DNA of 64,000 nucleotides from NCBI RefSeq assembly GCF_004025325.1, contig NZ_RSFE01000001.1:310001-374000 (forward strand). Direction: 5' to 3'. Below the pieces are notes generated by a model. That model saw nothing but the letters and a program-made list of their open reading frames with translations, was not told the origin of the DNA and did not search any database. Positions 4,801-63,928 of the stretch are shown in pieces (position 1 is the stretch's first letter; the number at the start of each line of letters is the position of its first letter). Source of the DNA: Pseudidiomarina gelatinasegens (GTDB taxonomy: Bacteria; Pseudomonadota; Gammaproteobacteria; Enterobacterales; Alteromonadaceae). A program made the position numbers and the translations under genes.

Positions 4801-5353
4801 GCGCGCTGAAGGCGTTGGCCTCGGCTTAAGCGTGGCCAAACGCATGAGTGAACAACTGCACTGTGAACTGCGTTTAAAAACCGTGGAAGGCTCCGGCAGT
4901 TGTTTCTCGGTAAAAGTGCCGCTGGGCAGCCCAGCACAAGTTTACGACAAACCCGAACAGCCAAGCACCGCCGACTTGCACCAAGGTTTGGTGATGGTGT
5001 GCGTGGACGACGATCAGGAAAACCTCAGTGCACTGCGCGCCTTGCTGGAAAAATGGGGATGTACCGTGGAAACGTTCACCAGCAGCGCCACAGCGCTAGA
5101 GTATGCCAGCACCCATACGCGGCCGGATGGTATCTTACTGGACTATCAGCTGGGCGACGATGATCACGATGGCCTAAGCCTTGCTGCAGCTTTGCGGGAG
5201 TACTGGGGCGAAAGTTTGTCAGGAGCGTTAGTCACCGCCATGCGCGACGACAACGTGCGAAAACAAGCGCGCGAGCGTAACCTGCACTTTTTAGCCAAGC
5301 CGGTTAAGCCCGCCGCGCTTAAATCCTTACTTAAATATCTGGAACGTCAGTAA
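1889..5353 (+). CDS. crbS: CrbS-like transporter-fused hybrid sensor histidine kinase
   Basis: Membrane sensor kinase of the acetate switch. The 1154-residue protein starts with about 13 membrane segments of the sodium:solute symporter fold (residues 1-510). A linker that may be a STAC-like domain follows, then a PAS domain (about 665-790), a coiled coil, a HisKA domain with phospho-acceptor H806 in SHDILQPLNAAR, a HATPase domain (NFLSNAVKYN near 916; GLGLSV) and a C-terminal receiver with D1085 in LLDYQLG. This order is that of CrbS, which with CrbR controls acs in Vibrio and Pseudomonas. The CrbR partner and acs lie 8.6 kb downstream. The chosen start is GTG 1889. An in-frame ATG at 1907 is equally possible because neither has a clear ribosome site. 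Confidence 0.88.
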   Translation: MNSIEPMTLLLILASLAYIALLFAVAHWGDKPNSLANKISYKPIIYSMSLAIYCTSWTYYGAVGNAATDGWAYIPILLGPFLLFVFALPLLEKLVSVSKQQNITSIADFIASRYGKRQRLALFVTLIAALATIPYIALQLKAVGLTFVVLTENTSALTQFSINELIAAGIMAVFAMLFGTRHIEVTEYRNGMILAIAFESAVKLLALIAAAIFAYSLFNDASPTSMWQQVTHPTDKAWSWEAFSEFDFIVQTFMAAGVILCLPRQFHVAVVDNVNVSHLKTARWGFPIYLVLVAVAIVPIALSGGLFFGNGFDGDTYALRLPLLHDQTWLAVFIFIGGFSAATAMVIIASVTLSTMVTNDVIMPVILQRQTRFPADFQKRLLLIRRVAIAIILLLSYLCYYFWAAGTGLVSIGLLAFSVVLQLLPAVLGGLYWRRGHARGVYVGLGTGLIAWLFAVAVPMYLPHTINDTSIITQGTVISMAVNTAFYIAFSLLAQPRLIDRIQATAFVKPRSTVKEHSVGRHHQATNGDMMLLLQTFVGEQRTAQLIDYFAESQGDDTSHTNKEDVASREFIDYVERVLTGVLGAATARSLVEAALRDRRLHLEEVVHFFDDTTQALQTQQSILFSSLENLAQGISVVDAELRLVAWNKRYLDLFNYPEGMVKPGQPIATLIRYNAERGECGPGEIDELVAKRLKHMQMGSPHRFIRRRGDGRVIEMVGNPLPNGGFVTSFTDITEHVETQQALEESNIDLEQRINVRQKKIREINNELTEEIERRRKVEVELKKAKQEAEEANASKTRFLALASHDILQPLNAARLYLSAMDETNLNPNNLQLTSKLDTALASTEHLLSTLLQIAKMDQGALQPNFRHVRLSTIIEPLIHEYSVLAEQRGIRLKTRLHDSVVYTDPTYLRRIIQNFLSNAVKYNRDNGKVLLGVRSRGEHLLIAVWDTGPGITSQQRHRVFDAFYRGSNTRAEGVGLGLSVAKRMSEQLHCELRLKTVEGSGSCFSVKVPLGSPAQVYDKPEQPSTADLHQGLVMVCVDDDQENLSALRALLEKWGCTVETFTSSATALEYASTHTRPDGILLDYQLGDDDHDGLSLAAALREYWGESLSGALVTAMRDDNVRKQARERNLHFLAKPVKPAALKSLLKYLERQ

Positions 5354-8800: not shown

Positions 8801-9822
8801 TCTAACGCTTGCGCTAAGCTAATTGAAGAACCGGTGGTGGTGCCGTCGGCATTCACCCACAAGGCTTTGTAGGCAAAGATATTGGCACCCGGCGCTACGC
8901 CAGAGAAATTCACAGCCACGCCATTAAAGGTGGTGCTGAGCGGATTGCCCGCAGCCGTTCCCGCTACGTGGGTGCCGTGGCCGTCAAGGTCGGCCGGTGA
9001 ATCGGCATATTCGTCAGGGTGAAGGTCTGCGCCATCTGGCACGAAGTAACGCGCCACCGCCAGCTTGTCATTACAAAACGTTGGCTCGGTCGCACAATAG
9101 TCATCGGTAACCCCAACATCAGGTGCCGTGTGCCCCGCGTCTTGAAACATCGGATGTTCAGGGTCAATACCGGTGTCAATAATCGCAATATTCACCCCAG
9201 CGCCAGCACTGGCTTGGCCACCGAGTTGTTGCCATACCGCAGGCGCTTCAATCAAGGCATTGGAGGTGTCCGTTTGCACATACACTTCACGGTCGGCATG
9301 CACTGACTTGATGCCCGCCACACCTTTTAACCGTTGCGGCAAGTCGTCGCCAGCATACTCAACAATTACCGCGTTCAATGTAAGATTTAGCTGGCCTTTG
9401 AGTGCCACTTCCGGCACCCGATCTTGAATACTCGCCATGACCTGTTGCTGACGCTTACCCACAAAACTCGCATAGTCGCGCACAGGCGCTGACTTCATGC
9501 TCATGCGCTCTTGCCCAGTCGCTTTGGCTGAGGTGGCAACATAATCACCAATGCCGCCTTTATAGGTCGCGACACTGGGTTCTTGTAATTGAATTAAATA
9601 ACGCTGCACGTTGCTGTTGCGCACGGCACGCATTTCAGCAACCGGTTGCTGCACTTTGCGCTGCGGCGCTTTCACGGTGCGTTCATGCACGGTGACTTGA
9701 ATATCAGATGGGTTGGTTTGTTCGCCGGCTACTTGTTGGGCATTCGCGGCAGGAATCAGCGTAAAACTCGCAGCTACGGCAAGCGCAATACGACTGGCTG
9801 CTGCGATAGTTGGATACGTCAT
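5827..9822 (-). CDS. Secreted S8 subtilisin-like protease with PA insert and GlyGly-CTERM-like tail
   Basis: Extracellular serine endopeptidase, 1331 residues from ATG 9822, which has AAGGATG upstream; a codon at 9858 extends the frame but has no such site. Domains in order: signal peptide ending ANAQQ, an I9-like propeptide (about 70-185), and an S8 catalytic domain with Asp216 (IIDTGID), His282 (GHGTHVAG) and Ser599 (GTSMASPH). A protease-associated domain (about 455-545) is inserted before the serine. A long beta-rich region follows, with two Ig/cadherin-like repeats near the end (EPPVVSVSSP, DADGDDLSYQW). The C-terminus KSSGGALQWFMLMLALPLIG plus an Arg cluster looks like a GlyGly-CTERM signal. 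Such tails mark type II secretion cargo cut by rhombosortase, and gsp genes lie in this window. It is a paralogue of the next gene. Confidence 0.92.
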   Translation of the reverse strand: MTYPTIAAASRIALAVAASFTLIPAANAQQVAGEQTNPSDIQVTVHERTVKAPQRKVQQPVAEMRAVRNSNVQRYLIQLQEPSVATYKGGIGDYVATSAKATGQERMSMKSAPVRDYASFVGKRQQQVMASIQDRVPEVALKGQLNLTLNAVIVEYAGDDLPQRLKGVAGIKSVHADREVYVQTDTSNALIEAPAVWQQLGGQASAGAGVNIAIIDTGIDPEHPMFQDAGHTAPDVGVTDDYCATEPTFCNDKLAVARYFVPDGADLHPDEYADSPADLDGHGTHVAGTAAGNPLSTTFNGVAVNFSGVAPGANIFAYKALWVNADGTTTGSSISLAQALDAAAKDGADVINNSWGSLDNGLAPYEADIVRAIDEMGIVNIAAAGNDGPEESSMGCPACIDEMFAVANTQTGREFATFMEHSDYTDAFYVTVGSGNFTISSAISGPFLTAKQEAPTNELACSAFNAGTFTDAIVLVQRGTCTFEEKANNLQAAGAKAMVLYNNEAGLLSMDLAAATLPSVSISQTIGNQLQQGWSAGEQVTINAPEQTISADLRDRLSASSSRGPNRDSTLLKPEIAAPGTNILSAYPGQSIALLSGTSMASPHVAGAAALLRALNPSWTHDQIKSALMTSAEVNIRQDDSDELATPHQIGAGRIDVAAAADTGITFSRASLNDNACIGTCTFERTVTNVSNSSRTWQLSMSFDDANMTADFPSSLTLAANESKVLSITVNTAFAAEGWQYGRLTLSDSSGTFVDAKLPVAVYTSLSDNTSIISGAVASGEVVAGEPMQLQLRGALGFTGNPTDFSVALPTDAAFAVDYDAIDVTLTRSDQLSYSANQDTGMLLWQGNQNDVPDTVSVTDAPGFAFAGMSLDDVATSKDITISSVCAEGCDDLVAEIELEGDGAFWQFDGADRRVFSMWSNGLVEMGPSRALLTASATALPDEAEPNGVIAPLWTDFEFVNGDGEMRYALVTEGSDTFLVLEWLRARSWVAPGEVDDGSRYTFNVWFRLNSNEAFFNYVDVSDGGGPVYATTVGLENMRGTVGETYYYSDTATGVYPANGQALAASFTYGERAAVVFDVPATVQDFGALSNVSVAGSTGRATTVDFTQQTEQLGRDFVVLMQVSSVENGVGVEYDAQLPILAAPQGALSGTVVSAPSNGTASFDGLTASYTPDDGWSGTDTFTVQLVDSVGATSATATVTVEVTNEPPVVSVSSPGSVNSGETVRLDASASTDADGDDLSYQWRVVSGAGVSLSGATTAVATFTAPQVTTNTTVQVEVTVSDGITTSSETVSVTVTPAPEKSSGGALQWFMLMLALPLIGLRRLAYFNRKQ

Positions 9823-9835
9823 GGTACATCCTTTA

Positions 9836-9872
9836 ATAAAAAAACGGCGATAAAGCATTCTATCGCCGTTTT
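9836..9872 (-). terminator. Rho-independent terminator between the two proteases
   Basis: On the minus strand an AACGGCGATA / TATCGCCGTT stem with a loop of about 8 bases is followed by a run of seven T. It lies after the stop of the upstream protease gene (9920) and just before the ribosome site of the downstream one, so the two proteases are likely separate transcription units. Confidence 0.85.
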
Positions 9873-9919
9873 GTATTGAATTACAAAATTTAAAAAATTG
9901 TAATTTTTAACCTGTTAAT

Positions 9920-12900
9920 TTACACCTTGCGGCGACGTAACCACACCAGTGGTAACGCCAACAAGGTGAATAACCAACCGAATGAACCGCTTGATTTATA
10001 AGCGGTTATAGCAACCTTTACAGTCTTCTGACTGGTCGTGATGCCATCTGATACCGTTAATAAAAAATTCGCTTCGGAGTCTTCGTCAACACGCGGTGCA
10101 ATGAATCTTGCTGCAGCCGTGTTTGCGTTGCTTAGCGATACCGTAGCCCCACCAATAAACTGCCATTGATACGTTAAAGTATCGCCTTCAGCGTCTGTAG
10201 TGCCAGCAGCATTCAGAACCACAATAGTGTCTGGCGAAACAGTGCTTGGCGCACGAACGGAAATAACCGGTGCCGTATTTGTTACGGTTACTTCAATGCT
10301 ATTCTCAGTTGATGTTGCACCAGCTTCATCGGTGACTCGATAGGTAAAGCTATCATTTCCAACCCAGCCTGCGGTTGGCGTATAGGTTGCCGTCATACCG
10401 TCTACCACAACTGAACCGTTTGCTGGTTGTGCGGTAACTTCAGTACTCAAATCTCCGTCAGGTTTTATCACCACGGGTATAAAGGCGTCATAGGACTGCT
10501 CACCGCTAGTAACATTAATTAACGTTATTAAGTCGCGTTTCGGATCACCTATGCTGTCCGTCAAATCAATCGCTATAGGCTGACTATGAGCGCCAGTCTG
10601 CGTCGCTGCAGACACATCACCAAAGGTGCTAACGTTCAGATTCATGTCAACCTGCAATTCAGCGCGATCGCTTGCCCCAACTTTGACCAATAATGAATCA
10701 AAGTCGGTTGGGTAGGAGCCTGATACATTGCCTGCGCCGTCGTCCATGAAGTAAGTTTCACCTACGGTGCCCATAAGGTTTTCAACACCAATAACGCTTC
10801 CCCAATAAGGCATTTCTGCTTGGTTTACATCAACGTAATTGAAATATACTTCGTCGGTACCCAACTTAAACCACGCATTGAACGTGTAACGTGTGCCAGT
10901 GTTATCACCATAGGTAGCATCAAAATATGCCGCAGCGTTATACCACTCAATTATTAAGTAGGTATCAATACCGTCACTAATAATGTCATAGCGAATTTCA
11001 CCCTCACCGGTCATGAACATGAAGTCGCTCCAAAATGGTGCAATAACCCCACTTGGTGCATCTTCACTGGGTAAACGTGCAGGAACAGGGAATGTGCCCT
11101 GATAGCCACCAACAGTCATAACGCCATTCGATGTAAAAGCAATCGTATCAACGCTTTGGCCTTCATAAAGCCAACCGCTGCCTATTGCGCCAATAGGAAG
11201 TTCCCAGCCAGCTTCATCACAACCTGTAGTACATAGTGAATATGTAGCACCACCAATCATGTCGAACCCTAACCCCGCATAAGGAAAGGTTGCATTCGCC
11301 AAACTGACATTATCGGCATTGGTTTGCGTACCGACCCAGGTTATTGTTCGTGTTGAAGCGTCGTATGCTGACTCAGTTGTCGTTGTACGAAGCTCTGTTA
11401 AAACCAACGAATCCTCTGCGATGACTACATTTTCATCAGTAGGAAGTTGTACTGTTAGTTCAACGTCGTCACCAAGAAGGGTTCCCATGCGCGTAATTAC
11501 AGACAGCGTAATATCGTTGTTGGCTGCAATTTCACCGGCAGTTACTGCACCCGCTACACCGCTTTCCAAGTCAGACTGTGCGTTGTAAACCGCAATTGGT
11601 AAATTTGCGTCAACATAAGTGCCACTTGCATCAGTAAACGTCAGTGTTCCGAAACGCCAATCGCCTGCAGCCATCTCAGTACGAATTTCAAGGTTGAAAT
11701 CAATAGAGCCATTGGCATCAAGAGTTATTGTTTCTGGGAATGTCGCTACAATATTAGGGTCGTCAAAACTTACCGACACGTTCCAGGTAGTTTCAGCATC
11801 ATCCAAGCTCGTAATAACGCGCTCGAAACTGCATTCGACCATGCACCAGCTATCGGCAAATGAAGCCTTGTCAAAGGTCATGCCCACATTAATAGCCGCC
11901 GGTAAATCTAAACGCCCAGCACCCACATCAAATGGGTCTGCAGGTGTTAGCGCGTCCTCTTTCTTCACGGTAAGTGCAGCTGAGGTCATCATCACTGATT
12001 TGACCTGTTTAGGTGTAAGCTCAGGATTATGTGCCAAAACCAATGCTGCCGCTCCAGCTACATGCGGGCTCGCCATTGAAGTACCATCTAGAATCGCATA
12101 GCTTTTACCTGGTGCTGCCGACAAAATCCCATGCCCAGGCGCAGCAATCTCTGGTTTCAGCATGTTCGCATCGCCGTTCGGCCCACGCGAACTGAAATCA
12201 GACATGATATCTACAACTGCCTGATCGATAGTCGCCACCGTAGGGTTTAACGTAGCTTGCATTCCTACCGCCCAGTCCGTTTCAATCAACTGGCCATCTG
12301 CCTGTAATATGGCCACGGTCGGTAGCGTGGCTACACCTAAATCAACACCAAACGCGCCAGCCTCATTGTTATATATAATCAAACCGATAGCACCGGCCGC
12401 TTGCACATTATTAGCTTTTTGCTCAAATGCACATGTACCGCGGGAAACTAATGCAATTTGCCCCGTAAAAGCTCCTGCAGCAAACGCATTACAGGCTTCA
12501 ATATTAGCTGCATCAACTTGAGATGCTGGCAATAAGTCCGCCGTAATTGCCTCGCTGATAGTGAAATCACCCTCGGCTACTCGCGCGTCTATTACATCTA
12601 AACCTGTCACCTCAAGTGCACTTCCAAACGTACGACCCGTTTGTGTGCTTGCCACTGTAATGGTTTCTTCAACACAACCTGGACAACCGATAGTTTCTGC
12701 ACCTGCACGTCCATCGTTTCCAGCGGCGGTAACAGTTACAACACCCATTTCATCAAGTGACTTCATAATGGCTGCGTAGGGGCTTGTAGCTGGATTACCA
12801 CCTGCACCGCCACCCCAAGAATTGTTAATAACGTCAGCACCATCTTCTGCCGCTGCGTTTAAGGCTTCAGCTAAGCTTATACTTGAGCCACTGCCGGTAC

Positions 12901-13852
12901 CTGCAGTTGTAACGTATAACGCTTTATAAACCATCAGGTTCGCGCCCGGCGCAACACCCGAAAAATTCACCGCTACACCATCATACGTAATACTGGTCGG
13001 GTTACCCACGGCAGTGCCGGCAACATGACTACCATGACCATCCACGTCTTGCGGCGTCTCTGTTTCGCTTGAGCCAACGTTACTCGGTGGCGTGAAAGCT
13101 CTCGCCACTATCAATTTGTCATTACAAACACCGGTATTTAGTGCGCAAAAATCATCAGTAATACCAAGGTCTGGACGATCATGCCCATTATCGGCAAACA
13201 TTGGATGATCAAAGTCGATACCCGTATCAATCACAGCAACATTAATGCCTTTACCGGCGGCATCTTGGCCCCCAAGTAACTGCCAAACATCAGAGCTTCC
13301 AATTAAATCGTTGGATGCATCCATGCTGACTGAAATTAGGTGATCTTCGTGTACGGCCTTAATGCCCGGGATGCCTCGTAATCTATCTTTCAAATCATCA
13401 CCGGCATATTCAACCACGGCTCCATTAAACGCGAGCGTCATATGCGACTTTGCGGTTAATTGAGGCACACGTTGGGTTACTTCGCGCAATACAGTATCTT
13501 GACGTTTGTTAAGATACCCAGCGTAAGTTTGTACGGGTTTAGCTTTCAGGTCTAAACGCTCTGCGCCGCTGGCTGCAGCTGATGTTGCAACAAATCCCGC
13601 AATACCACCCTTATAAGTAGCTACTGGCGGCTCGACAAACTCTATCAAATATCGTCTTGTATCAGTAAACGCCTTTTGCTCATCTGCAATGCGCGTTGGA
13701 ATCTTCGATAACTGTTTATTGATTCGGTGTTCAGTAACTGCGGCGTTGGTGTCAACTCGAGTAAACTCTTGAGCGACAGCTACCGAAACGCTTGATGCAG
13801 CAGCAACGGCAATGGCCAAGGTTGACCATCGAGCTTTTATAATTGTTTTCAT
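9920..13852 (-). CDS. Secreted S8 subtilisin-like protease, tandem paralogue
   Basis: Extracellular serine protease of 1310 residues from ATG 13852, preceded by AGGAAGAGC. It has the same plan as its neighbour: signal peptide ending VAVAQ, inhibitor-like propeptide, S8 domain with Asp209 (VIDTGID), His273 (GHGSHVAG) and Ser592 (GTSMASPH), and a PA-type insert (about 450-540). Beta-sandwich regions follow, with a PKD/cadherin-like end (DAEGDTLTYQW). The last residues, YKSSGSFGWLFTLLALPLVW plus Arg-Arg-Arg-Lys, form a GlyGly-CTERM-like sorting tail. Long identical stretches with the neighbour, such as SGVAPGAN and ADVINNSWG, show an old duplication. Both sit between crbS and acs-crbR. Whether CrbR controls them is not shown by the sequence. 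Confidence 0.92.
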   Translation of the reverse strand: MKTIIKARWSTLAIAVAAASSVSVAVAQEFTRVDTNAAVTEHRINKQLSKIPTRIADEQKAFTDTRRYLIEFVEPPVATYKGGIAGFVATSAAASGAERLDLKAKPVQTYAGYLNKRQDTVLREVTQRVPQLTAKSHMTLAFNGAVVEYAGDDLKDRLRGIPGIKAVHEDHLISVSMDASNDLIGSSDVWQLLGGQDAAGKGINVAVIDTGIDFDHPMFADNGHDRPDLGITDDFCALNTGVCNDKLIVARAFTPPSNVGSSETETPQDVDGHGSHVAGTAVGNPTSITYDGVAVNFSGVAPGANLMVYKALYVTTAGTGSGSSISLAEALNAAAEDGADVINNSWGGGAGGNPATSPYAAIMKSLDEMGVVTVTAAGNDGRAGAETIGCPGCVEETITVASTQTGRTFGSALEVTGLDVIDARVAEGDFTISEAITADLLPASQVDAANIEACNAFAAGAFTGQIALVSRGTCAFEQKANNVQAAGAIGLIIYNNEAGAFGVDLGVATLPTVAILQADGQLIETDWAVGMQATLNPTVATIDQAVVDIMSDFSSRGPNGDANMLKPEIAAPGHGILSAAPGKSYAILDGTSMASPHVAGAAALVLAHNPELTPKQVKSVMMTSAALTVKKEDALTPADPFDVGAGRLDLPAAINVGMTFDKASFADSWCMVECSFERVITSLDDAETTWNVSVSFDDPNIVATFPETITLDANGSIDFNLEIRTEMAAGDWRFGTLTFTDASGTYVDANLPIAVYNAQSDLESGVAGAVTAGEIAANNDITLSVITRMGTLLGDDVELTVQLPTDENVVIAEDSLVLTELRTTTTESAYDASTRTITWVGTQTNADNVSLANATFPYAGLGFDMIGGATYSLCTTGCDEAGWELPIGAIGSGWLYEGQSVDTIAFTSNGVMTVGGYQGTFPVPARLPSEDAPSGVIAPFWSDFMFMTGEGEIRYDIISDGIDTYLIIEWYNAAAYFDATYGDNTGTRYTFNAWFKLGTDEVYFNYVDVNQAEMPYWGSVIGVENLMGTVGETYFMDDGAGNVSGSYPTDFDSLLVKVGASDRAELQVDMNLNVSTFGDVSAATQTGAHSQPIAIDLTDSIGDPKRDLITLINVTSGEQSYDAFIPVVIKPDGDLSTEVTAQPANGSVVVDGMTATYTPTAGWVGNDSFTYRVTDEAGATSTENSIEVTVTNTAPVISVRAPSTVSPDTIVVLNAAGTTDAEGDTLTYQWQFIGGATVSLSNANTAAARFIAPRVDEDSEANFLLTVSDGITTSQKTVKVAITAYKSSGSFGWLFTLLALPLVWLRRRKV

Positions 13853-13987
13853 TGCTCTTCCTTCTGTCCATGAGGTATGTGCGACATTCACTATTCGCAG
13901 CAGAAGAAATTAACACAACCCATTAACAAATAAACAAATTTTGTTTAAATGTTGTAACAGAATATTTCAGTCGTGTAGTTAAGTGGG

Positions 13988-14635
13988 TTAGCTCAGGTTG
14001 GATTCTAACTGCAGGCGCTCAGCCAGCAACACCGCTTGGGTGCGGCTATAAACGCCGAGCTTTCTGAATATCGCCGTAATGTGTGCTTTCACGGTGGCTT
14101 CAGTAATATTAAGTTGGTAGGCAATTTGTTTGTTGAGCAAACCTTCGTGCAGCAAATACAGCACGCGGTATTGTTGCGGGGTTAAATCGGCCACTTTTTT
14201 GGCAAGTTGTTGGTCTTCATCGGTCAGGTTGTCTAAGCGCCCGCGCATTTCTTCAGGCACCCAGGTGTCGCCCTGCAAAATCACATCTATGGCTTCCGCA
14301 ATTTTAGCCGAAGGCAGTGACTTTGGAATAAAACCCAAGGCACCGAAACCAATGCATTTAGCTACAACAGCAGGGTCTTCTGAGCCTGAAATAATCGCAA
14401 CAGGTAATAAGGGAAAGTCTTCGCGGATACGAATCAAACCATATAAATCGCCGCTGCCTGGCATGTGCAAGTCAAGCAGCAGCAGATCAAGATCATCATC
14501 GTCATTTAAAGCAGCCAAAGTCGCGTCAAGATCACCAGCCTCACGTAATTCCAGCTCGGGATAATGATTCGCGAGCGCGCCTTGCAGCGCCTCGCGAAAC
14601 AACGGGTGATCATCAGCGATTAAAAATTTGGCCAT
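13988..14635 (-). CDS. crbR: CrbR-like NarL/LuxR-family response regulator
   Basis: DNA-binding partner of the CrbS-type kinase. The 215-residue protein has a receiver domain (1-120) with acidic pocket D8/D9, phospho-acceptor D55 in LLLLDLHMPG and the conserved K105, then a LuxR-type helix-turn-helix (about 148-205) with LNKQIAYQLNITEATVKAHI. Its ATG is 3 bp after the acs stop, so acs and crbR are very probably one transcript. This matches known biology: in Vibrio cholerae and Pseudomonas, CrbR activates acs for acetate scavenging. The placement suggests an auto-amplifying loop, which is an inference. Confidence 0.88.
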   Translation of the reverse strand: MAKFLIADDHPLFREALQGALANHYPELELREAGDLDATLAALNDDDDLDLLLLDLHMPGSGDLYGLIRIREDFPLLPVAIISGSEDPAVVAKCIGFGALGFIPKSLPSAKIAEAIDVILQGDTWVPEEMRGRLDNLTDEDQQLAKKVADLTPQQYRVLYLLHEGLLNKQIAYQLNITEATVKAHITAIFRKLGVYSRTQAVLLAERLQLESNLS

Positions 14636-14638
14636 GCT

Positions 14639-16582
14639 CTACTTGTTTAAGCGGTTCTCTATTAACGAATCTACCACAGACGGATCCGCAAGCGTAGAGG
14701 TATCACCTAAGTTTTCAAACTCATTGGCAGCTATCTTGCGCAAAATACGACGCATGATTTTGCCTGAACGTGTTTTCGGCAAGTCCACTGTCCAATGAAT
14801 GAAGTCTGGCGTGGCAATTGGGCTTAACTCTTTACGCACCCAGTCGCGCACTTCTTTGGTCAGCTCGTCGGTAATTTCGGTGCCGGCCATCGCTGACACA
14901 TACACATAAATACCTTGGCCCTTCACGTCATGCGGGTAGCCTACTACTGCAGCTTCAGAAATCTTCGCATGCTCAACCAGCACCGATTCAATTTCCGCGG
15001 TGCCTAAGCGGTGACCCGAAACGTTCAACACGTCATCCACACGGCCAGTAATCCAGAAAAAACCGTCTTCGTCACGGCGCGCACCGTCACCGGTGAAATA
15101 CATGTTCTTGTAAGCGGAAAAGTACGTTTGTTCAAAGCGCTCGTGATCGCCCCACAACGTACGCATTTGCCCCGGCCACGAATCTTTCAATACCAAGTTG
15201 CCATCAACTGCGCCTTCAAGCTCATTGCCATCGGCATCCACCAAGGCTGGCTGCACCCCAAAGAATGGCCGCGTCGCTGAACCCGGTTTCAAGTCGGTTG
15301 CACCCGGCAGTGGCGTGATCATGATGCCGCCCGTTTCAGTTTGCCACCAAGTATCCACAATTGGGCAACGGCTCTCGCCAATCACCTTGTAGTACCACTC
15401 CCACGCTTCTGGGTTGATCGGCTCGCCAACTGAACCCAGCGTGCGCAATGACTTACGGGTAGAAGTTTCTGCCGCTGCAGTGCCTTTTGCCATCAACGCA
15501 CGAATTGCCGTCGGTGCCGTGTACAAAATATTCACGCTGTGTTTGTCGACCACTTCACCAATACGGCCGACACCCGGATAGGTTGGCAACCCTTCAAAAA
15601 TTAACGTCGTTGCGCCGTTCGCCAGTGGCCCGTAAACAATGTAGCTGTGCCCGGTAATCCAACCCACATCGGCTGCACACCAATACACATCGTCTTCGTG
15701 GTAATCAAATACCAGTTCGTGCGTCATCGACGCATACACCATGTAGCCACCGGTAGTATGCAACACGCCTTTCGGCTTACCAGTCGAACCTGAGGTATAC
15801 AAAATGAATAATGGGTCTTCCGCGTTCATCACTTCTGGCTGACACTCAGCTGGCACGTCTTTGACCAGTTGGTCCCACGCCACATCACGGTTGTCATCCC
15901 ACTCGGTTTCGCCATGGATAACTTTCGCCACCACCACATGCTCAACCGTCGGACAACGCCCGCCACGCAGAGCTTCATCAACATTTGCCTTAAGTGGCGT
16001 GGTTTTGCCGCCACGACGACCGCCGTCAGCGGTCACAACAACTTTCACGCCGCAGTCATTCACGCGGTCAGCAATTGCGTTCGGCGAAAAGCCGCCAAAA
16101 ATAACAGTATGTACTGCACCAATACGCGCACAAGCCAACATCGCGTAAGCCGCTTCCGGCACCATCGGCATATAAATCGCAACCCGGTCGCCCTTTTGCA
16201 CACCAAGTTTCTTCAAACCATTCGCAAACCGCGATACTTCATGGTGCAGCTGCTTGTAACTAATCTCTTCGCTAACACTTGGGTCATCACCTTCCCAAAT
16301 AATCGCAGTTTTATCGCCGCGCTCCGCCAAATGGCGATCAACGCAGTTGTAGCACGCATTCAACGTGCCATCTTCAAACCATTTAATGCTTACATTGCCC
16401 GGCGCAAAACTGGTGTTCTTCACCTTGCTGAACGGACTAAACCAACTGATACGCTGACCCTGCTCACGCCAAAAACCTTCCGGGTCTTTCACGCTCTGAG
16501 CATACATGGCTAAATACTTGTCATTATCAACATGCGCCCGCGCTTTCGCATCCGCCGGCACTTTATAAACTTCATGTTGCAT
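14639..16582 (-). CDS. acs: Acetyl-CoA synthetase (AMP-forming)
   Basis: Cytoplasmic enzyme making acetyl-CoA from acetate, ATP and CoA through acetyl-AMP. The length, 647 residues, is standard. Seen: the P-loop-like [12 protein letters not shown] motif, the WWQTETGG adenylate-forming motif, the hinge and acyl-binding region ([16 protein letters not shown]) and the C-terminal [11 protein letters not shown], whose second lysine is the site acetylated by Pat-type enzymes in other bacteria. AGGAGG lies just before ATG 16582. It is followed at once by crbR. The divergent DcaP-like porin gene across a 346-bp spacer may share its control. Confidence 0.96.
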
Positions 16583-24471: not shown

Positions 24472-25845
24472 ATGGAAGTTACTCAGATTGTTCATCACGG
24501 CGCGCACCAAGGCGTAACCGGTTCATGCCACGAGTTTTATCTAACCGAAACCGCATCCATGCTGGTTGACTGCGGCCAGTTTCAAGCGCGCGATGCTGAA
24601 AGCAACGACTTTGATCGGCGTGTGCAAGACATCGACTTTTATATCGATAATCTGATTGGGCTGGTGGTCACTCATTGTCATATCGATCATGTTGGCAGGC
24701 TGCCCAGTTTACTCATGGCTGGCTTTCGCGGCCCCATTTATTGCACCCCAGCCACCGCCCAACTGCTGCCACTGGTGCTGGCCGATGCCATGAAAGTCAC
24801 CCGCTTCCCCTACCCTGAAAAGGTATTAAGTGGGGTGCAGTCCCAGCTCCGCACCCTACCTCTTGACCAGTGGCACGGGTTGGAACATGGGTGGCGCATG
24901 CGTTTGCGTAACGCAGGGCATATCATGGGCTCGGCGTACGTTGAGTTTGAACAGTCGCTTGCGAAAGGCGCCGAAGGCTTGCCAAAGCGGGTGGTATTCT
25001 CTGGTGACTTGGGCTGCAAGAATACGCCGTTGTTGCCAGACCCTACCCCGCTGGAATATGCCGACACCTTGGTGCTGGAAAGCACCTACGGCGACCGCTT
25101 GCACGAAGACCGCGACACGCGGCAGCAGCGGCTGAAAAATGTTATTGAGAAAGCCTTCGTCGATAAAGGCACCGTGTTGATTCCGGCCTTTAGTATCGGT
25201 CGCACGCAAGAACTGCTGTATGAAATAGAAGACATCATGCATCAAGACCCCGACTGGCGAAAAATGACGGTAATTTTAGATTCGCCGCTAGCCAGCCAAT
25301 ACACCAAACACTATCGGCGGCTCAAGGCGCTGTGGGACGACGAAGCGAAACAACGCTTGGCGGATGACCGTCACCCGTTAAACTTCGAGCGCCTGCATGT
25401 GGTTGAAAGCCATCACCAGCACGAACAAATCATCGAACTGCTGCGCAGTAGCGGCGAGCCTGCCATTGTTTTAGCCGCCAGCGGCATGTGCACCGGTGGC
25501 CGCATCGTGAATTACCTCAAGGCATTGCTGGACGATGAGCGCACCGACATTGTGTTCGTTGGCTATCAAGCAGCAAATACCCCCGGGCGCGATATTCAGG
25601 AGCATGGCCCCGGTGGCGGCTATGTGGTGCTTGACCATCAGCGCTACCAAATTCGGGCGCGCGTACACACCTTGGGCGGTTATTCCGCGCACGCTGATCA
25701 GCGCGAATTGCTGGAATTTTTACAAACCACGGTGAAGCCGGTGCACAACGTGCGCCTGGTGCACGGCGAAGAAAACGCGAAAAAAGTCCTTGCGACAAAG
25801 ATTTCGGACGGCGGGTATGTTACTGGTGATGTTTCCTTTGTATGA
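24472..25845 (+). CDS. Metallo-beta-lactamase / beta-CASP RNase-like hydrolase carrying a palindromic-element peptide
   Basis: A 457-residue hydrolase of the YSH1/CPSF73-like group. The zinc motif H68-C-H70-I-D72-H73 (VVTHCHIDHVGR), the distal HIMGSAYVEF and FSGDLG, the beta-CASP part with ILDSPLA and ASGMCTGGRIVNYL, and the C-terminal GGYSAHADQRELL are all present, so activity on RNA or a phosphodiester is expected. Residues 120-130 (SGVQSQLRTLP) are encoded by one copy of the window's palindromic element, inserted in frame in a loop after the second zinc-region helix. It is the first gene of a rightward run into cysC; the cysC ATG is 40 bp after its stop. Its link to sulfate activation is unknown. 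Confidence 0.85.
   Translation: MEVTQIVHHGAHQGVTGSCHEFYLTETASMLVDCGQFQARDAESNDFDRRVQDIDFYIDNLIGLVVTHCHIDHVGRLPSLLMAGFRGPIYCTPATAQLLPLVLADAMKVTRFPYPEKVLSGVQSQLRTLPLDQWHGLEHGWRMRLRNAGHIMGSAYVEFEQSLAKGAEGLPKRVVFSGDLGCKNTPLLPDPTPLEYADTLVLESTYGDRLHEDRDTRQQRLKNVIEKAFVDKGTVLIPAFSIGRTQELLYEIEDIMHQDPDWRKMTVILDSPLASQYTKHYRRLKALWDDEAKQRLADDRHPLNFERLHVVESHHQHEQIIELLRSSGEPAIVLAASGMCTGGRIVNYLKALLDDERTDIVFVGYQAANTPGRDIQEHGPGGGYVVLDHQRYQIRARVHTLGGYSAHADQRELLEFLQTTVKPVHNVRLVHGEENAKKVLATKISDGGYVTGDVSFV
24829..24862 (+). repeat. Palindromic element inside the beta-CASP gene (short subtype)
   Basis: GTGGGGTGCAGTCCCAGCTC continues with CGCACCCTACCTC. Its reverse complement matches the copy in gspM almost base for base. 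The insertion keeps frame and adds about eleven codons. Confidence 0.85.
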
Positions 25846-26512: not shown

Positions 26513-26554
26513 GTGGGGTGCAGTCCCTGCTCCGGAGCAGGGACTGCACCCCAC
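26513..26554. repeat. Palindromic element, perfect 42-bp palindrome between cysC and cysQ
   Basis: Two 21-base arms starting GTGGGGTGCAGTCC are exact reverse complements with no loop, three bases after the cysC stop. It is the fullest copy and can be taken as the reference for the long subtype, with a CCTGCTCC/GGAGCAGG centre. In RNA it would form a very strong hairpin, but no T-run follows, so it is not a standard terminator. Confidence 0.95.
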
Positions 26555-29181: not shown

Positions 29182-29579
29182 TGACAACCAAACGAATCTG
29201 CGCGCTCGCACTGACAGTAACATTGGGCAGTGGTGTACCAAGTGCACAGGCTGCCGAGGGCTGGGGTTCAAAGCTCGGCGAGTTTCTTACTGAATTGCCG
29301 CTGGCCGACGCCTGGAGCTGGTTTACCGGCATGAACAGTGTGGCATGGGTAAATGAAAACGACCTCAAGGCCGCCAACGTGCAGTATGTGGTGAATGCGA
29401 ACAGCCGCGTGCTGGTGCGCGCCGGCGCCTCCACCGACACCGCCATCATCGACAAGCTAAACCCGGGTGATACCGTGCAAATTATCGGCAAAAACCCATT
29501 TCAAAGCTGGTACCACGTGCAACTCAGCGACAACCGCGAAGGCTACATCCATCAGGATCTGTTGCGGGTGCAGTTTTAG
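29181..29579 (+). CDS. Periplasmic SH3-domain protein
   Basis: A 132-residue protein with a signal peptide ending SAQAAEG (about residue 24) and a bacterial SH3 domain (about 70-130) with NSRVLVRAGASTDTAIIDKL and SWYHVQLSDNREGYIHQDLL. Such domains bind cell-wall peptides or other proteins in the periplasm. The coupled start (TGATGA) ties it to the unknown membrane protein before it, so the two may form an envelope complex; this is an inference. Confidence 0.75.
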   Translation: MTTKRICALALTVTLGSGVPSAQAAEGWGSKLGEFLTELPLADAWSWFTGMNSVAWVNENDLKAANVQYVVNANSRVLVRAGASTDTAIIDKLNPGDTVQIIGKNPFQSWYHVQLSDNREGYIHQDLLRVQF

Positions 29580-29593
29580 CACCGAACCCCAAC

Positions 29594-29625
29594 GGGGTGC
29601 GGAGCTAGGACTGCACCCCACTTCC
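29594..29625. repeat. Palindromic element, short subtype, before cysD
   Basis: GGGGTGCGGAGCTAGGACTG followed by CACCCCACTTCC. It differs by one core base from the gspM copy (TAG in place of TGG). It lies between the SH3-protein stop and the cysD start. Confidence 0.9.
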
Positions 29626-59889: not shown

Positions 59890-60501
59890 TTAAAAGTGGA
59901 AGCTACCAGTTAAAGCCATATAACTGTTATCACTGTCAATTAACGTGTAACCAGCGCCCAAGCTGAACTCTTGGGTGATAAAGTAACGACCGGCAACAGT
60001 CCACTCTTGATCGCTGCCATCGTAAATGTCGACGTGGCGCACGTTCGCGTCCACTTCAATGTCGTTGGTTAAACGCGAACGTAAGCCAATCTGTGCGTTC
60101 CAACCGGTATCGTCTTCGCTGTAGTTACCAAAACCTGACGAGCGCACTTCGGCGTCGTTATACACCAGGCCGCCGGCCACGTAGCCTACGGTGTTGCCCA
60201 TGTTGTAGAACTTATAGCCGATGTTGCCGTACAGGCTGGCAGATTCCGCATCTACCGAAAAACCGCCTGCATTGTAATCGTCGCTGGCATAGATGTACTC
60301 AGCGCTGAAGAACCACTCCGGGTTGATGGACATATTCAAGTGCGCGCCTGCGCCGTTGAGGGTTTCTCCATCAAGATCATAGCTAATGTAGCTAACACCA
60401 AGCTTATCGAAGCTTGGAGCCTGTTGCGCATTCGCGGCGGTGGTACCCATTGCAGTAGCCATTACTGCGGCGATGGCAGAAATTTTAAATATTGTTTTCA
60501 T
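59890..60501 (-). CDS. Small outer-membrane beta-barrel protein
   Basis: A 203-residue protein: signal peptide ending ANAQQA (about 26), then alternating strands of an eight-stranded barrel (LGVSYISYDL, AGAHLNMSIN, WFFSAEYIYA, SLYGNIGYKF) and a terminal strand ending in Phe (ALTGSFHF), as needed for Bam recognition. It resembles OmpA-like or YfaZ-like small barrels, without a peptidoglycan-binding domain. GAAGGA precedes ATG 60501. The substrate or role is unknown. Confidence 0.75.
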   Translation of the reverse strand: MKTIFKISAIAAVMATAMGTTAANAQQAPSFDKLGVSYISYDLDGETLNGAGAHLNMSINPEWFFSAEYIYASDDYNAGGFSVDAESASLYGNIGYKFYNMGNTVGYVAGGLVYNDAEVRSSGFGNYSEDDTGWNAQIGLRSRLTNDIEVDANVRHVDIYDGSDQEWTVAGRYFITQEFSLGAGYTLIDSDNSYMALTGSFHF

Positions 60502-60546: not shown

Positions 60547-60578
60547 AAGTGGGGTGCAGTCCTAGGACTGCACCCTCT
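60547..60578. repeat. Palindromic element, minimal copy upstream of the barrel gene
   Basis: GTGGGGTGCAGTCCT meets AGGACTGCACCCTCT, a near-perfect hairpin without the long centre. It is 45 bp upstream of the barrel ATG and 25 bp after the mscS stop. Confidence 0.92.
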
Positions 60579-60603: not shown

Positions 60604-61422
60604 CTAATCTTGCTTGTGTAAATGCACATCCATTTGTGGATATGGAATACCAATTTCGTTTTTGTCTAATGCGATTTTAATTTCGCGCATCAGATCCCAG
60701 TACACGGGCCAATAGTCGGTGCTGTTCACCCAGGGGCGTACTATGAAATCTACCGATGAGCTGTTTAATGCATGCACTTGAATATTCCAGGCAGGGTCTT
60801 TTAACAGACGGCTTTCGGCTTTCAACACGTTTTCCAGCACTTCTTTGGTTTTGTGCAGGTCTGCGTCATACGACACACCAATCAGCAAATCGACGCGGCG
60901 CGTGTCTTCGCGGTTGTAGTTGGTGATGGGCTGGCTGGTAATTTGCGCGTTTGGCACAAACACCACTTTGTTGTCAGGCGTTTTCAGGATGGTTTGGAAT
61001 ATATTCACTTCTTCCACGGTTCCTGACACACCGCCTGCGTCGACGTATTCACCGGCGCGGAATGGGCGGAACAGGATAATTAATACGCCTGAGGCCATGT
61101 TCGACAGTGAGCCCTGCAGCGACAAGCCAATAGCTAAGCCGGCTGCACCCAAGATGGCGATAAACGAGGTGGTTTCAACCCCCACTTGCGACAATGCCAT
61201 GAGCACCGCGGCGATGAAAATCACTGAGCGCACGATGGCGCCAAGGAAACTGATCACGGCTTTATCGGTGCCGCGTTTTTCCATGCCTTTGCCCATTATT
61301 CGAGCAACTGAATTCGCAACTATTTTACCCACAATCAAGATGATGATTGCGACAATGAATTTTACGGTGTAGCTGAGAATCAACTCTTGGTTCTCGCTAA
61401 TCCATGTCATGACCTGTTCCAT
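60604..61422 (-). CDS. mscS: Small-conductance mechanosensitive channel
   Basis: Inner-membrane tension-gated channel that releases solutes on osmotic downshock. It has 272 residues. Three N-terminal helices, with the pore helix GAAGLAIGLSLQGSLSNMASG, then the beta domain with FRPFRAGEYVDAGGVSGTVEEV and the alpha/beta vestibule up to GIPYPQMDVHLH. It is 12 bp after gspN on the same strand. Confidence 0.95.
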   Translation of the reverse strand: MEQVMTWISENQELILSYTVKFIVAIIILIVGKIVANSVARIMGKGMEKRGTDKAVISFLGAIVRSVIFIAAVLMALSQVGVETTSFIAILGAAGLAIGLSLQGSLSNMASGVLIILFRPFRAGEYVDAGGVSGTVEEVNIFQTILKTPDNKVVFVPNAQITSQPITNYNREDTRRVDLLIGVSYDADLHKTKEVLENVLKAESRLLKDPAWNIQVHALNSSSVDFIVRPWVNSTDYWPVYWDLMREIKIALDKNEIGIPYPQMDVHLHKQD

Positions 61423-61434
61423 GTGTACTCCTTT

Positions 61435-62196
61435 TTACCATTTAAAATTATAGCGGCCTTGGGCGTCTGGCTTGCCGAGAAACACTAACAAATCTGTGAT
61501 GGGTTTCGGTGTTTGCAAGGTTGGCTGCATACTGCCTGTTAGGCTTACTTGCGGCGAATCGATGCGCCCATTCACTTGTGCGTTTAAGCGTAGCCCAACC
61601 AAATTATTATCGTCAACTTTCACGGCAATACCGTTTTGCTCGTTGCAGCTGAGCGTCGAAACGTAATCGCCCAGCGCATGCCATTGCTGGTTGATGCGCA
61701 TTTCTGTGGTGCGCGCATTAAAGCGTGCATCCAGGCTATCACAGATTTTTCCGCTTTGATAATCAGACAGTTGATAATCAGCGACTGCCAATTCCCAATT
61801 GCCGGCCATGGTGATGGGTACGGGTAATTTGAGCTGTTGGATCGCCGGTTGCATCGCGCCTTGCAAGTTCGCGGTAATCGTCGCTTTTGATGCACTGGCG
61901 TTGATGGTCGCGCTGCCGTGGATGTAATTTGTCGACGGAATTTGCAGTGCGATATCGGCTTGCCCTAAGAATAACTGCCAAGGGCTTAAGCGCCAGCTGA
62001 CATCCTGCAAGTTTAACGTTCCACCGGTTGGCAATTCGGCACTCATGGATGTCTTACCATGCCATAGCGTGCCCTGCGTTGAGGTGGGGTGCAGTCCCGG
62101 GACTGCACCCCACTTAATAACGGCGGCGGGAGTGAGCGCGACCAGCGCAACAAGATAAAGTGGAATCAACCACAGTAACCAACGCCACGACATCAT
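61435..62196 (-). CDS. gspN: Type II secretion protein GspN
   Basis: Minor inner-membrane component of type II secretion, 253 residues. N-terminal helix (about 6-24), then GTLWHGKTSM, LQDVSWRLSPWQLFLG and C-terminal LTGSMQPTL, typical of GspN. Residues about 28-40 (KWGAVPGLHPTST) are encoded by a palindromic element at 62082-62115, placed right after the membrane helix. The start overlaps gspM by four bases. Confidence 0.9.
   Translation of the reverse strand: MMSWRWLLWLIPLYLVALVALTPAAVIKWGAVPGLHPTSTQGTLWHGKTSMSAELPTGGTLNLQDVSWRLSPWQLFLGQADIALQIPSTNYIHGSATINASASKATITANLQGAMQPAIQQLKLPVPITMAGNWELAVADYQLSDYQSGKICDSLDARFNARTTEMRINQQWHALGDYVSTLSCNEQNGIAVKVDDNNLVGLRLNAQVNGRIDSPQVSLTGSMQPTLQTPKPITDLLVFLGKPDAQGRYNFKW
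62082..62115. repeat. Palindromic element inside gspN
   Basis: A perfect 30-bp palindrome at 62084-62113, GTGGGGTGCAGTCCC and its complement, lacking the long centre. The peptide frame gives GAVPGLHPTS, the same frame as the gspL copy. Confidence 0.95.
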
Positions 62197-62723
62197 TCGC
62201 TCACCTGCAGTCGGCGCACGCGCACCATACCTGGTTCGCCGCCTTCAGTGGCGTCGAGGTGCTCAATGGTGAGGCCCGCTTCGGTTTGTAGACTTTCGAT
62301 AAATTGCAGCAAGGTATTAAAGCCAACTTGGTCGATGACCACCAACAGGCTGTCGGACTGCGGCTGCATGCGCGTTACTTCAATTTTTGCGGCGCTTGCC
62401 AAGGTTGTCACCCGCTCGCTGACGCTGCCACCCATGCTTGAGGTGGGGGTGCGGAGCTGGGACTGCACCCCACTTCCGCTTTGCGCGAGGTAGCGGCCGG
62501 TATTTTCACGCACCCATTGCAGCAGTTCTTGCTGGGCATTGATTTTGGTTTCACGCTCGGCGATACCGTCGGTAACTGGCTTCCACAGCAGGAAGTACGC
62601 CAGCGTGATGACCAGCAATACGGCGGCAGTGCTCACCAACACCTTTTCGCGTTGGTTCATTTGATTCACGCGTGCTTCAAGCCCGGGCACACGGTGGATA
62701 AGTTGTTGCAGCAAATTGGCCAT
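62193..62723 (-). CDS. gspM: Type II secretion protein GspM
   Basis: Inner-membrane platform protein that pairs with GspL. It has 176 residues: short cytoplasmic start, helix (about 28-46; VLVSTAAVLLVITLAYFLLW), and a ferredoxin-like periplasmic domain with VIDQVGFNTLLQFIESLQ. Residues about 82-95 (GSGVQSQLRTPTSS) come from a palindromic element in the linker between helix and folded domain. The start overlaps the gspL stop (TAATG). Confidence 0.93.
   Translation of the reverse strand: MANLLQQLIHRVPGLEARVNQMNQREKVLVSTAAVLLVITLAYFLLWKPVTDGIAERETKINAQQELLQWVRENTGRYLAQSGSGVQSQLRTPTSSMGGSVSERVTTLASAAKIEVTRMQPQSDSLLVVIDQVGFNTLLQFIESLQTEAGLTIEHLDATEGGEPGMVRVRRLQVSE
62441..62476. repeat. Palindromic element inside gspM (short subtype)
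   Basis: GTGGGGGTGCGGAGCTGGGA followed by CTGCACCCCACTTCC. Its core of 22 bases is the exact reverse complement of that in the beta-CASP gene at 24829. Frame is kept, and the peptide SGVQSQLRT is shared with that gene. Confidence 0.95.
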
Positions 62724-63928
62724 TATACGTCCTTCTTCACGGTCAAAGCGCCGCTAACGGCTCCCGACTGGTTATTCACAGGGCCCTGCTCAACAGTCAC
62801 CTGCCCGCCTTCGTTCGCCACTTTGCGGAAATTCTCTAAGCTACCGAAACTATTGGCTTTTACTTGCATACGTAAGGTTTCATTTTCGAAGCGCAGCATC
62901 TCAAGGCGTACATCGCGGTTCGCTTTAAACGCCGGTTCCAGATGGGCCAACAACTCCAGTGGCGACGCGGTGACACCCTCAACGCCAAGGCTTTCAAGGT
63001 GACGGTTCAACTGCGAGCGCACGTTAACAATGCGCTTTTCATTCGGGAAGGTATCGCGGTAGGTTTGCTCAATGGCTTGTTCAAGCTGCGCGCTTTGCTC
63101 CCCTAACTGCACATATTCAACTACCTGCGAGCTGTAACCGACAGCCAATAACACCGCAGCAGCTATCGCAGCCGGTTTGTAAGCGCCCACATTAGATGCG
63201 CCCTTGCGCTTCTTACGCTGTACCCGATACTGATGCTGCCGTAGGTTAATCATTTCTGGCTGGGATTTGCGCGCGTTGTAAGTGGTTGCCACGATGCTCA
63301 GCGGCACCTCAATGTCCATCTGCTCAACGGCCTGCAGTTGCATGCCTTCAGCCATAACCGGCAACAGCGCGATGTCCGTGCTAAAGCCACTGTATTGGCC
63401 GGTGCGGATGATGACGGTTTCGCCGAGCGTGAGCGAGGTGGGGTGCAGTCCCTGCTCCGGAGCAGGGACTGCACCCCCCTCCTGCGGAGCCGGAACCATG
63501 AAGATATCCGGATACATTTCATCGCACTCGATGTCAGCGGCATCCAGCGCTTGCAGCCACTTGGTCATGGCTTCGTGCGCGACCACGGCAACGTGCAGCG
63601 ATAAACCTGTGCCGCTCTTTTTCACCGGCGGCCAGGCAAAATGCAATTCACTGATGTCTTGCGCCAACTCGTCTTCCAGCGCATTGGGGATTACTTGCGA
63701 CAACATGCGCATCGCGCTATTGGGCAACTCAACGGCAGTGATCAGCACGTCGGTGCCCGGCGCGAAACAAATCACCTCACGGCTGCGCGCATGATCGCTC
63801 AATTGGCTTAGCTCGGACAAATCGTTGAGCGTGCCGCTGGCAATAAGTTCTTCTTGCACCGGGCTCCAAATCAGCCAGTGCAGCGGCTCATGCGGTTGCG
63901 AGCTCAAACGAATGAATAATTGTTCCAT
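62723..63928 (-). CDS. gspL: Type II secretion protein GspL
   Basis: Inner-membrane platform protein that recruits the GspE ATPase. It has 401 residues: an actin-like cytoplasmic domain (1-235), a helix (about 253-272; PAAIAAAVLLAVGYSSQVV) and a periplasmic ferredoxin-like part (about 310-400). Residues about 150-164 (GGAVPAPEQGLHPTS) come from a long-subtype palindromic element in a loop of the cytoplasmic domain. It is placed after gspK as in standard gsp operons. Confidence 0.93.
   Translation of the reverse strand: MEQLFIRLSSQPHEPLHWLIWSPVQEELIASGTLNDLSELSQLSDHARSREVICFAPGTDVLITAVELPNSAMRMLSQVIPNALEDELAQDISELHFAWPPVKKSGTGLSLHVAVVAHEAMTKWLQALDAADIECDEMYPDIFMVPAPQEGGAVPAPEQGLHPTSLTLGETVIIRTGQYSGFSTDIALLPVMAEGMQLQAVEQMDIEVPLSIVATTYNARKSQPEMINLRQHQYRVQRKKRKGASNVGAYKPAAIAAAVLLAVGYSSQVVEYVQLGEQSAQLEQAIEQTYRDTFPNEKRIVNVRSQLNRHLESLGVEGVTASPLELLAHLEPAFKANRDVRLEMLRFENETLRMQVKANSFGSLENFRKVANEGGQVTVEQGPVNNQSGAVSGALTVKKDV
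63436..63479. repeat. Palindromic element inside gspL (long subtype)
   Basis: Two 21-base arms with one mismatch at 63478 compared with the perfect copy between cysC and cysQ. The inner centre CCTGCTCC/GGAGCAGG is identical. The copy adds about 14 codons in frame. Confidence 0.95.

Follow-up and report, generated by a model that had tools for sequence, protein, structure and literature searches.

In this study, we analysed a stretch of 64,000 nucleotides from Pseudidiomarina gelatinasegens (contig NZ_RSFE01000001.1, positions 310,001 to 374,000 of the forward strand; hereafter the window), in which gspL, gspM and gspN of the type II secretion system (T2SS) carry short palindromic elements in frame. 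The palindromes are repeated and clustered in this genome, and in sister species a palindrome family pairs with each branch of a Y1 HuH transposase. They are probably non-autonomous elements of this transposase, a group-1 RAYT/TIRYT, which spread locally and were tolerated in frame, the enzyme gene having since been lost from the genome of the window or being unassembled there. The search for the transposase covered 26 genomes; genomes are labelled from G000 (the genome of the window) onward. On the basis of similarity, G000 and its close relatives P. marina PIM1 (G023) and P. tainanensis PIN1 (G011) were named clade A, and G012, G018 and G020 were named clade B.

Palindromes in the secretion genes and in the genome

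The initial annotation described one copy of the same palindrome in each of gspL, gspM and gspN. This was correct for gspN and gspL, but the gspM copy is only degenerate (Table 1). All three frames were open across the copies, and the peptides were those given in the annotation. The 14-bp core GTGGGGTGCAGTCC had 15 matches in the window at no more than three mismatches, compared to a mean of 3.45 in shuffled sequences, and 0 of 100 shuffles reached 15. The copies had also been placed in loops or linkers near membrane helices. By hydropathy, only the gspN copy is close to such a helix; some 90 residues separate the gspL copy (residues 151-163) from the hydrophobic stretch at 252-273, and the gspM copy begins at residue 85, more than 30 residues past a hydrophobic stretch ending near residue 52. 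A loop was predicted for the gspL insert, with low confidence (mean predicted local distance difference test score, pLDDT, of 48 for residues 151-160) within a well-predicted domain.

At no more than two mismatches the core had 39 matches in G000, 27 of them within 16 element loci, and the reversed pattern had 4; the 12 two-mismatch single arms elsewhere were dropped before loci were counted. Contig C11 holds 13 of the 16 loci within 91 kb (304-395 kb); C22 has two and C26 one. Seven loci fall inside 9 kb at the gsp genes, where 0.06 was expected, and three inside 6 kb at a gene for a metallo-beta-lactamase (MBL)-fold hydrolase, where 0.04 was expected, a doubtful copy in the MBL gene being counted. 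Seven loci are clearly genic, in gspF, gspJ, gspK, gspL, gspM, gspN and a cNMP/CBS/DUF294 gene; the set is thus larger than the three adjacent genes first reported. Eight loci are intergenic and one, in the MBL gene, is doubtful as an insertion because native residues of clade B and G023 align with its peptide without a gap. It was withdrawn as an in-frame insertion and kept among the 16 loci.

The genic copies are read in three frames, which give GAVP/GLHP or a close form in gspL, gspN, gspJ and the DUF294 gene, GVQS in gspM, and GTAP in gspK and gspF. The use of three frames argues against a protein motif. The intergenic copies share sequence with the genic ones. A two-arm pattern with exact 10-bp arms was found at 9 places in G000 and in only three further genomes among the 59 searched (G000 included), all of the same genus, and the reversed-pattern control gave 0.

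We compared the occupied places with those of relatives. The DUF294 gene was the cleanest case of insertion. Of the 21 genomes aligned, a short turn is present in 11 (126-129 nt over the aligned stretch), element DNA at that turn in seven (clades A and B and G024; 150-225 nt) and 8 unrelated extra residues in two. The remaining gene, in G015 (L162), has 38 extra residues there, which do not show the palindrome consensus. No target-site duplication, such as a MITE of a DDE insertion sequence would leave, was evident between empty and filled DUF294 sites, at a divergence too high to exclude one. The gspL element lengthens the protein by about 10 residues relative to the nearest element-free relatives. 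The linker in relatives is about equally long in gspM and gspN, so that there the element stands in for variable residues. The fraction of G000 element residues aligned to gaps in four reference genomes (G010, G007, G022 and G004) was 0.79 for gspL, 0.57 for gspK, 0.25 for gspF, 0.10 for gspJ, 0.06 for gspM and 0.0 for gspN. The clean presence or absence that had been expected is therefore partly right: the alignments point to clean insertion in DUF294, net gain in gspL and gspK, and linker replacement in gspM and gspN. The element peptides are absent or unlike in more distant orthologues of gspL, gspM and gspN within the genus and of DUF294, and the DNA palindrome is lineage-specific. These comparisons support the view, also that of the initial annotation, that the segments are repeated palindromic elements and not native protein motifs.

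In clades A and B, the lengths of the paired elements mostly differ by multiples of 12 bp: the outer G and C runs are separated by 26, 38, 50 or 74 bp, and elements with full arms measure 30, 42, 54 or 78 bp. When four bases are added for the arm ends, 61 of the 75 listed rows have lengths divisible by three (40 of 43 for clade A and 21 of 32 for clade B, where one row is nested in another). The other 14 rows (37, 49, 55 and 61 bp) are intergenic or lie no farther than about 33 residues from the end of an open reading frame (ORF), and several of these ORF ends are probably over-extended frames. In six-frame translation, five clade A and B forms were free of stops in all frames, and a TAG-centred form, intergenic in G000, had stops in two of six. 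The forms of G025, G015, G014 and G006 had stops in 1, 2, 2 and 4 frames, respectively. Openness thus characterises clades A and B and does not extend to every family.

A Y1 transposase gene and its palindrome families

A Y1_Tnp gene (PF01797) lies inside the element cluster of clade B. PF01797 matches were found in 19 of the 26 genomes. G000 had none, nor did it have a tblastn match to Y1 proteins in about 129 kb of its 2.47 Mb (the window and L001-L005). The kind of gene concerned here, type 2, is complete in 11 genomes, and a contig end cuts the G016 copy. Ten of these 11 genomes have palindromes within about 1 kb to either side of it; G013 has them on one side. The gene occupies only two places in these genomes. 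Docking place 1, beside mscS and gspN, holds it in G015, G025, G014, G020, G012 and G018, and docking place 2, within a few kb of the MBL orthologue, holds it in G013, G006, G017, G004 and G002. Both places are in the syntenic block of the window and both match clusters of G000, which keeps elements at the two places and lacks the type-2 gene.

The type-2 enzyme is about 238 aa long, with a Y1_Tnp HuH domain and NHxH and YIELNP motifs. It scored 72.6 bits against NCBIfam REP_Tyr_transpos, under the cutoff of 80. The best match of its predicted structure (mean pLDDT 76) was 4er8, the TnpAREP bound to a repetitive extragenic palindrome (REP), with E 1.9e-9; the sequence profile gave E 2.3e-7. 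The C-terminal region is predicted to be a helical tail and has no helix-turn-helix match in Pfam. In other genera, exact GGGGTCAG occurs within shared inverted flank repeats at 12 of 27 Y1 loci and GGGTCAG at 17 of 27 (top repeats). The Pseudidiomarina flank repeats, GGGGTGCAG and GGGGCAGC, are related to GGGGWSAS but altered. The enzyme agrees in motifs and length, and its gene may agree in flanks, with TnpAY1 subclass 2.1 of Quentin 2018 (PMC6006769; this and the other published accounts are cited from excerpts throughout).

Each enzyme branch has its own palindrome family. The families are GGGGTGCAGACC in clade B, GGCCCCAGCT in G015, GGGGCAGGCACTTAA in G014 and G016, and RGGGCWGCCCY in G025 and the five place-2 genomes. 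In genome-wide searches, which covered the families other than that of G015, genomes holding another family gave 0-2 matches where searched. In the enzyme tree, support was 97/98 for the place-2 clade, 99/96 for clade B, 93/99 for G014 with G016 and 90/91 for clade B with G015; G025 joins the place-2 branch at only 81/59. The sequence GGTCTGCACCCC occurs 40, 42 and 36 times in the clade B genomes and 0-1 times in the other 23.

The gsp genes carry copies where the transposase gene adjoins them (G020, G018, G012, G025 and G014, and sparsely G015). The related element with GGGGTGCAGACC arms lies in gspD, E, F, J, K, L and N of clade B. In G025, GGGGCTGCCCC boxes occupy gspC, D, E, F, H, J, K, L and N, and in G015 gspF, and possibly gspN, has GGCCCCAGCT elements. 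One GspF linker is occupied by four different palindromes across the lineages. Few linkers may tolerate inserts, so shared places are no proof of targeting. For the place-2 genomes, no family core was present in the 3.5-kb gspL-N stretches of G013, G006, G017 and G002, and the 20-kb gsp stretch of G004, whose transposase gene is 100 kb off, had no copies of the family core. A palindrome count independent of sequence (perfect stem of at least 11) detected intra-ORF copies at gspL-N in just two of 24 genomes, G000 and G014, which indicates that most genic copies of the sister species are imperfect.

The elements are also crowded around the type-2 gene. The loci within 50 kb of it were 23 of 28 in G012, 21 of 28 in G018, 15 of 27 in G020, 9 of 26 in G004, 14 of 29 in G025, 18 of 34 in G017 and 9 of 20 in G002, that is 35-82% per genome, where 0.7-1.3 loci were expected. 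These statistics cover the seven genomes with complete listings; G013, G006, G014, G015 and G016 were left out. The p values were 5e-9 to 2e-28 (8.5e-8 in G004), for loci that are related by descent and copying and are not independent events. In other genera, eight 20-kb stretches centred on a RAYT had 6, 2, 2, 3, 11, 0, 1 and 2 copies of GGGGTCAG, five neighbouring stretches had 2, 2, 0, 0 and 0, and seven controls had 0, 0, 1, 0, 0, 0 and 1. The dense form of the element is thus, as far as tested, mainly a Pseudidiomarina trait.

Table 1. Genes and palindromic elements in the window (positions counted from its first nucleotide)
Feature	Position	Strand	Description
MBL-fold RNA-processing hydrolase gene	24472..25845	+	marks docking place 2
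Element-like stretch in MBL-fold gene	24830..24855		RMMBL/Beta-Casp gene; doubtful as insertion
Intergenic element	26513..26554		perfect 42 bp; 2 kb downstream of MBL gene start
Intergenic element	29570..29621		degenerate; one exact arm 29608-29621
Outer membrane protein (OMP) beta-barrel gene	59890..60501	-	second neighbour of docking place 1
Intergenic element	60549..60578		30 bp, between OMP gene and mscS; site of Y1 transposase gene (docking place 1) in sister lineages
mscS-like gene	60604..61422	-	neighbour of docking place 1
gspN	61435..62196	-	Pfam T2SSN
gspN element	62084..62113		perfect 30-bp palindrome; in-frame peptide WGAVPGLHP
gspM	62193..62723	-	Pfam T2SSM
gspM element	~62443..62473		degenerate; exact arm 62460-62473 and imperfect left half; peptide SGVQSQLRTPTS
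gspL	62723..63928	-	Pfam T2SSL, GspL_C
gspL element	63438..63479		42 bp, one outer mismatch, inner 38 bp a perfect palindrome; peptide GAVPAPEQGLHPT

Origin of the elements

We propose that the elements, built from near-palindromic 12-bp units, are served by the Y1 enzyme. The enzyme would copy them through single-stranded intermediates, mostly to sites close to its own gene and to one another, and the spread would remain local through cis action of the enzyme or through re-insertion of the intermediates in the same replication region, at the local fork. Landings that break genes would be purged by selection, with survivors between genes or in flexible linkers. Since the clade A and B forms are mostly of triplet length and mostly lack stop codons in all six frames, a protein could accommodate them as additional or substituted residues, and copies would have built up in this way in the T2SS operon next to docking place 1. 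In G000, the transposase gene may have been lost, or may be unassembled, the assembly being in 28 contigs.

Several observations weigh against this proposal. Several insertion places are common to clades A and B, so that many copies are old and the counts are of events that are not independent; the p values for distance overstate. Some clusters have no Y1 gene, namely that on C22 of G000 (with its clade B orthologues G012 C8, G018 C11 and G020 C1/C2) and those at G025 C6 and C7:215-227k. Four element-bearing genomes lack the type-2 gene (G000, G011, G023 and G003), as does G024, which is 88% complete; the presence of elements therefore needs no enzyme now. There is little or no net insertion in gspM, gspN, gspJ and the MBL copy, and the G025 family has colonised gsp genes though the form tested has a stop in one of six frames. 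Neither target duplication nor excision was seen at the sites compared, and movement is proposed from association. Quentin 2018 (PMC6006769) reports no REP-like sequences beside subclass 2.1 genes, in the part of that paper on which we draw.

The strongest alternative, which we nevertheless consider unlikely, is that old ancestral insertions changed in place by hairpin-templated repair, slippage of 12-bp units or gene conversion from neighbours, with the transposase as a bystander. The places common to clades A and B (gspF, gspK, gspL, gspN, DUF294, the 3-prime end of a 232-aa gene and a place near msrA) speak for it, as do the length changes by 12-bp units and the perfect palindromes in a genome without the transposase gene. 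In addition, clade-B-type arms are retained in gspF of G023 and in the left gspL arms of G023 and G011, which suggests old insertions common to the two clades that were later overwritten in part. However, change in place does not by itself account for clusters at the transposase places or for the pairing of families with enzyme branches, and it leaves the separate family in the gsp genes of G025 unexplained.

We give little credence to an element like the Rickettsia palindromic element (RPE), without a dedicated transposase and unrelated to RAYTs. In-frame copies in several frames of unrelated proteins would agree with it, but the sister families flank a specific Y1 gene, and the arms lack the CGTC tag given for rickettsial elements by Di Nocera 2013 (PMC3733652); no CGTC was found at the arm ends of the G000 copies listed, and the comparison with RPE concerns this tag only. 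Selected regulatory hairpins, such as terminators or mRNA-stability elements in operons, are just as improbable: the elements are GC-rich and some intergenic ones are followed by T-rich runs, but several copies lie mid-gene, sister species hold different palindromes at the same linkers, and Rfam had no match in window positions 24000-64000. That the segments are native and palindromic by chance is least credible of all, the gapless MBL match notwithstanding, given the unlike distant orthologues, the three frames and the identical intergenic copies. Finally, a presumed resemblance of GGACTGCACCCC to IS3/IS150-type insertion sequence ends was set aside because the copies are free-standing palindromes and the sister families flank Y1 genes.

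More tentatively, and with less than even confidence, group-1 Y1 transposases might run a distance-limited palindrome system suited to genes, with mostly stop-free units of whole codons, repeated rewriting of linkers in an adjacent secretion machine and a new family as the enzyme diverges. Should these enzymes have palindromes of this local, gene-tolerant kind, there would be candidate substrates for a large group of enzymes and a way to measure over what distance a Y1 transposase acts, and one secretion machine would offer a natural series of different peptides set into the same linkers. Relatives of the enzyme are widespread, with 75 of 196 genomes of this bacterial family matching its profile at E<=1e-30, some of which may be other Y1 subclasses, yet subclass 2.1 is reported without REP-like repeats in the cited part of PMC6006769.

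Relation to known systems and further Y1 genes

The system shares features with several described ones. TIRYTs of Di Nocera 2013 (PMC3733652) were linked to TnpAY1 subclass 2.1 by Quentin 2018 (PMC6006769), whose table equates this subclass with Bertels group 1. Like TIRtron/TIRYT, the Pseudidiomarina system combines inverted repeats next to the gene with a Y1 enzyme (about 230-250 aa) that has NH[FIV]H, YIELNP/YIEMNP and a C-terminal extension; some relatives from other genera are flanked by GGGGTCAG, fitting GGGGWSAS. Unlike in TIRYT, the Pseudidiomarina repeats are palindromic arrays of 12-bp units or paired boxes, are clustered near the gene and also lie within genes. They form 20-34 merged loci per genome in the seven genomes counted, whereas the excerpts describe moderate families of terminal inverted repeats (Di Nocera) or no REP-like repeats (Quentin).

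As in the REP/REPIN-RAYT systems of Bertels and Rainey 2011 (PMC3116915), palindromic non-autonomous repeats accompany one resident Y1 gene, and gene and repeat diverge together. That account describes REPs as extragenic with spacing random beyond 200 bp, and REPIN clusters adjoining each of three RAYTs; the Pseudidiomarina elements, in contrast, are clustered over tens of kb and also intragenic. Thus the elements of the sister genomes are palindromic, repeated and beside a Y1 gene, as canonical REPs are, and G000 lacks that gene. The constant GT[AG]G foot of REPs is missing: GTGG starts some clade A copies only, and clade B copies start mostly with GAGAGGGG or AGAGGGGG. Nor is the dispersal of canonical REPs, mainly extragenic, seen in G000, with its clusters and seven of 16 loci clearly in genes.

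The in-frame palindromes in unrelated proteins, the double insertions in one gene and the linkers or loops proposed as tolerant sites resemble RPE and the intragenic GTAG/CGTC REPs (PMC3733652). Unlike RPE, the Pseudidiomarina elements are tied to a Y1 gene and one genomic block. The clustered GTAG-23 REPs of T. roseum (PMC3733652) likewise form repeat blocks at few loci, but are described in that excerpt as blocks only, with no stated in-frame colonisation of an operon. The initial annotation had named Rickettsia and Wolbachia for in-frame palindromes. Intragenic in-frame REPs are reported in several species outside Rickettsia, with one clustered family (PMC3733652). Those reports, the linked transposase family in sister species and the local clustering had escaped the annotation. 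What is new here is the transposase link, the local crowding and the repeated colonisation of one operon. A literature search on palindromes in Idiomarina and Pseudidiomarina and on TIRYT, judged mainly from listings and with subscription journals mostly outside its scope, gave no report of the present system.

Some further observations concern single genomes. At L148 of G194, a member of another genus, eleven GGGGTCAG lie around a group-1 Y1 gene (7523-15340), with none in the next 20 kb or the control; this is possibly a second case of local spread. G003 has 64 RGGGCWGCCCY sites, including a dense cluster (e.g. C1:35244-47108), and no type-2 Y1 gene, and is a second lineage with elements and without enzyme. 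The type-2 gene of G014 (L097 5022-6092) has a C-terminal extension of about 120 residues, inside which the palindrome core of that genome lies in frame (5176-5209 and 5308-5320).

A second kind of RAYT (MRNVRRYFERGYYFFT...) was found at L074-L077, L079, L080, L082 and L083 (G011, G021, G019, G008, G007, G003, G012 and G020). Its G020 copy scored 151 bits against NCBIfam REP_Tyr_transpos. It is flanked by 19-bp REPs such as CCCGTGGTNNNACCACGGG, and in several genomes it adjoins a gene that we take to be Hsp33-like. In addition, four Y1 genes on C1 of G015 (529860, 596277, 1185205 and 2151120) have frames of 149 aa and score almost equally; they are IS200-like and distinct from the RAYTs.

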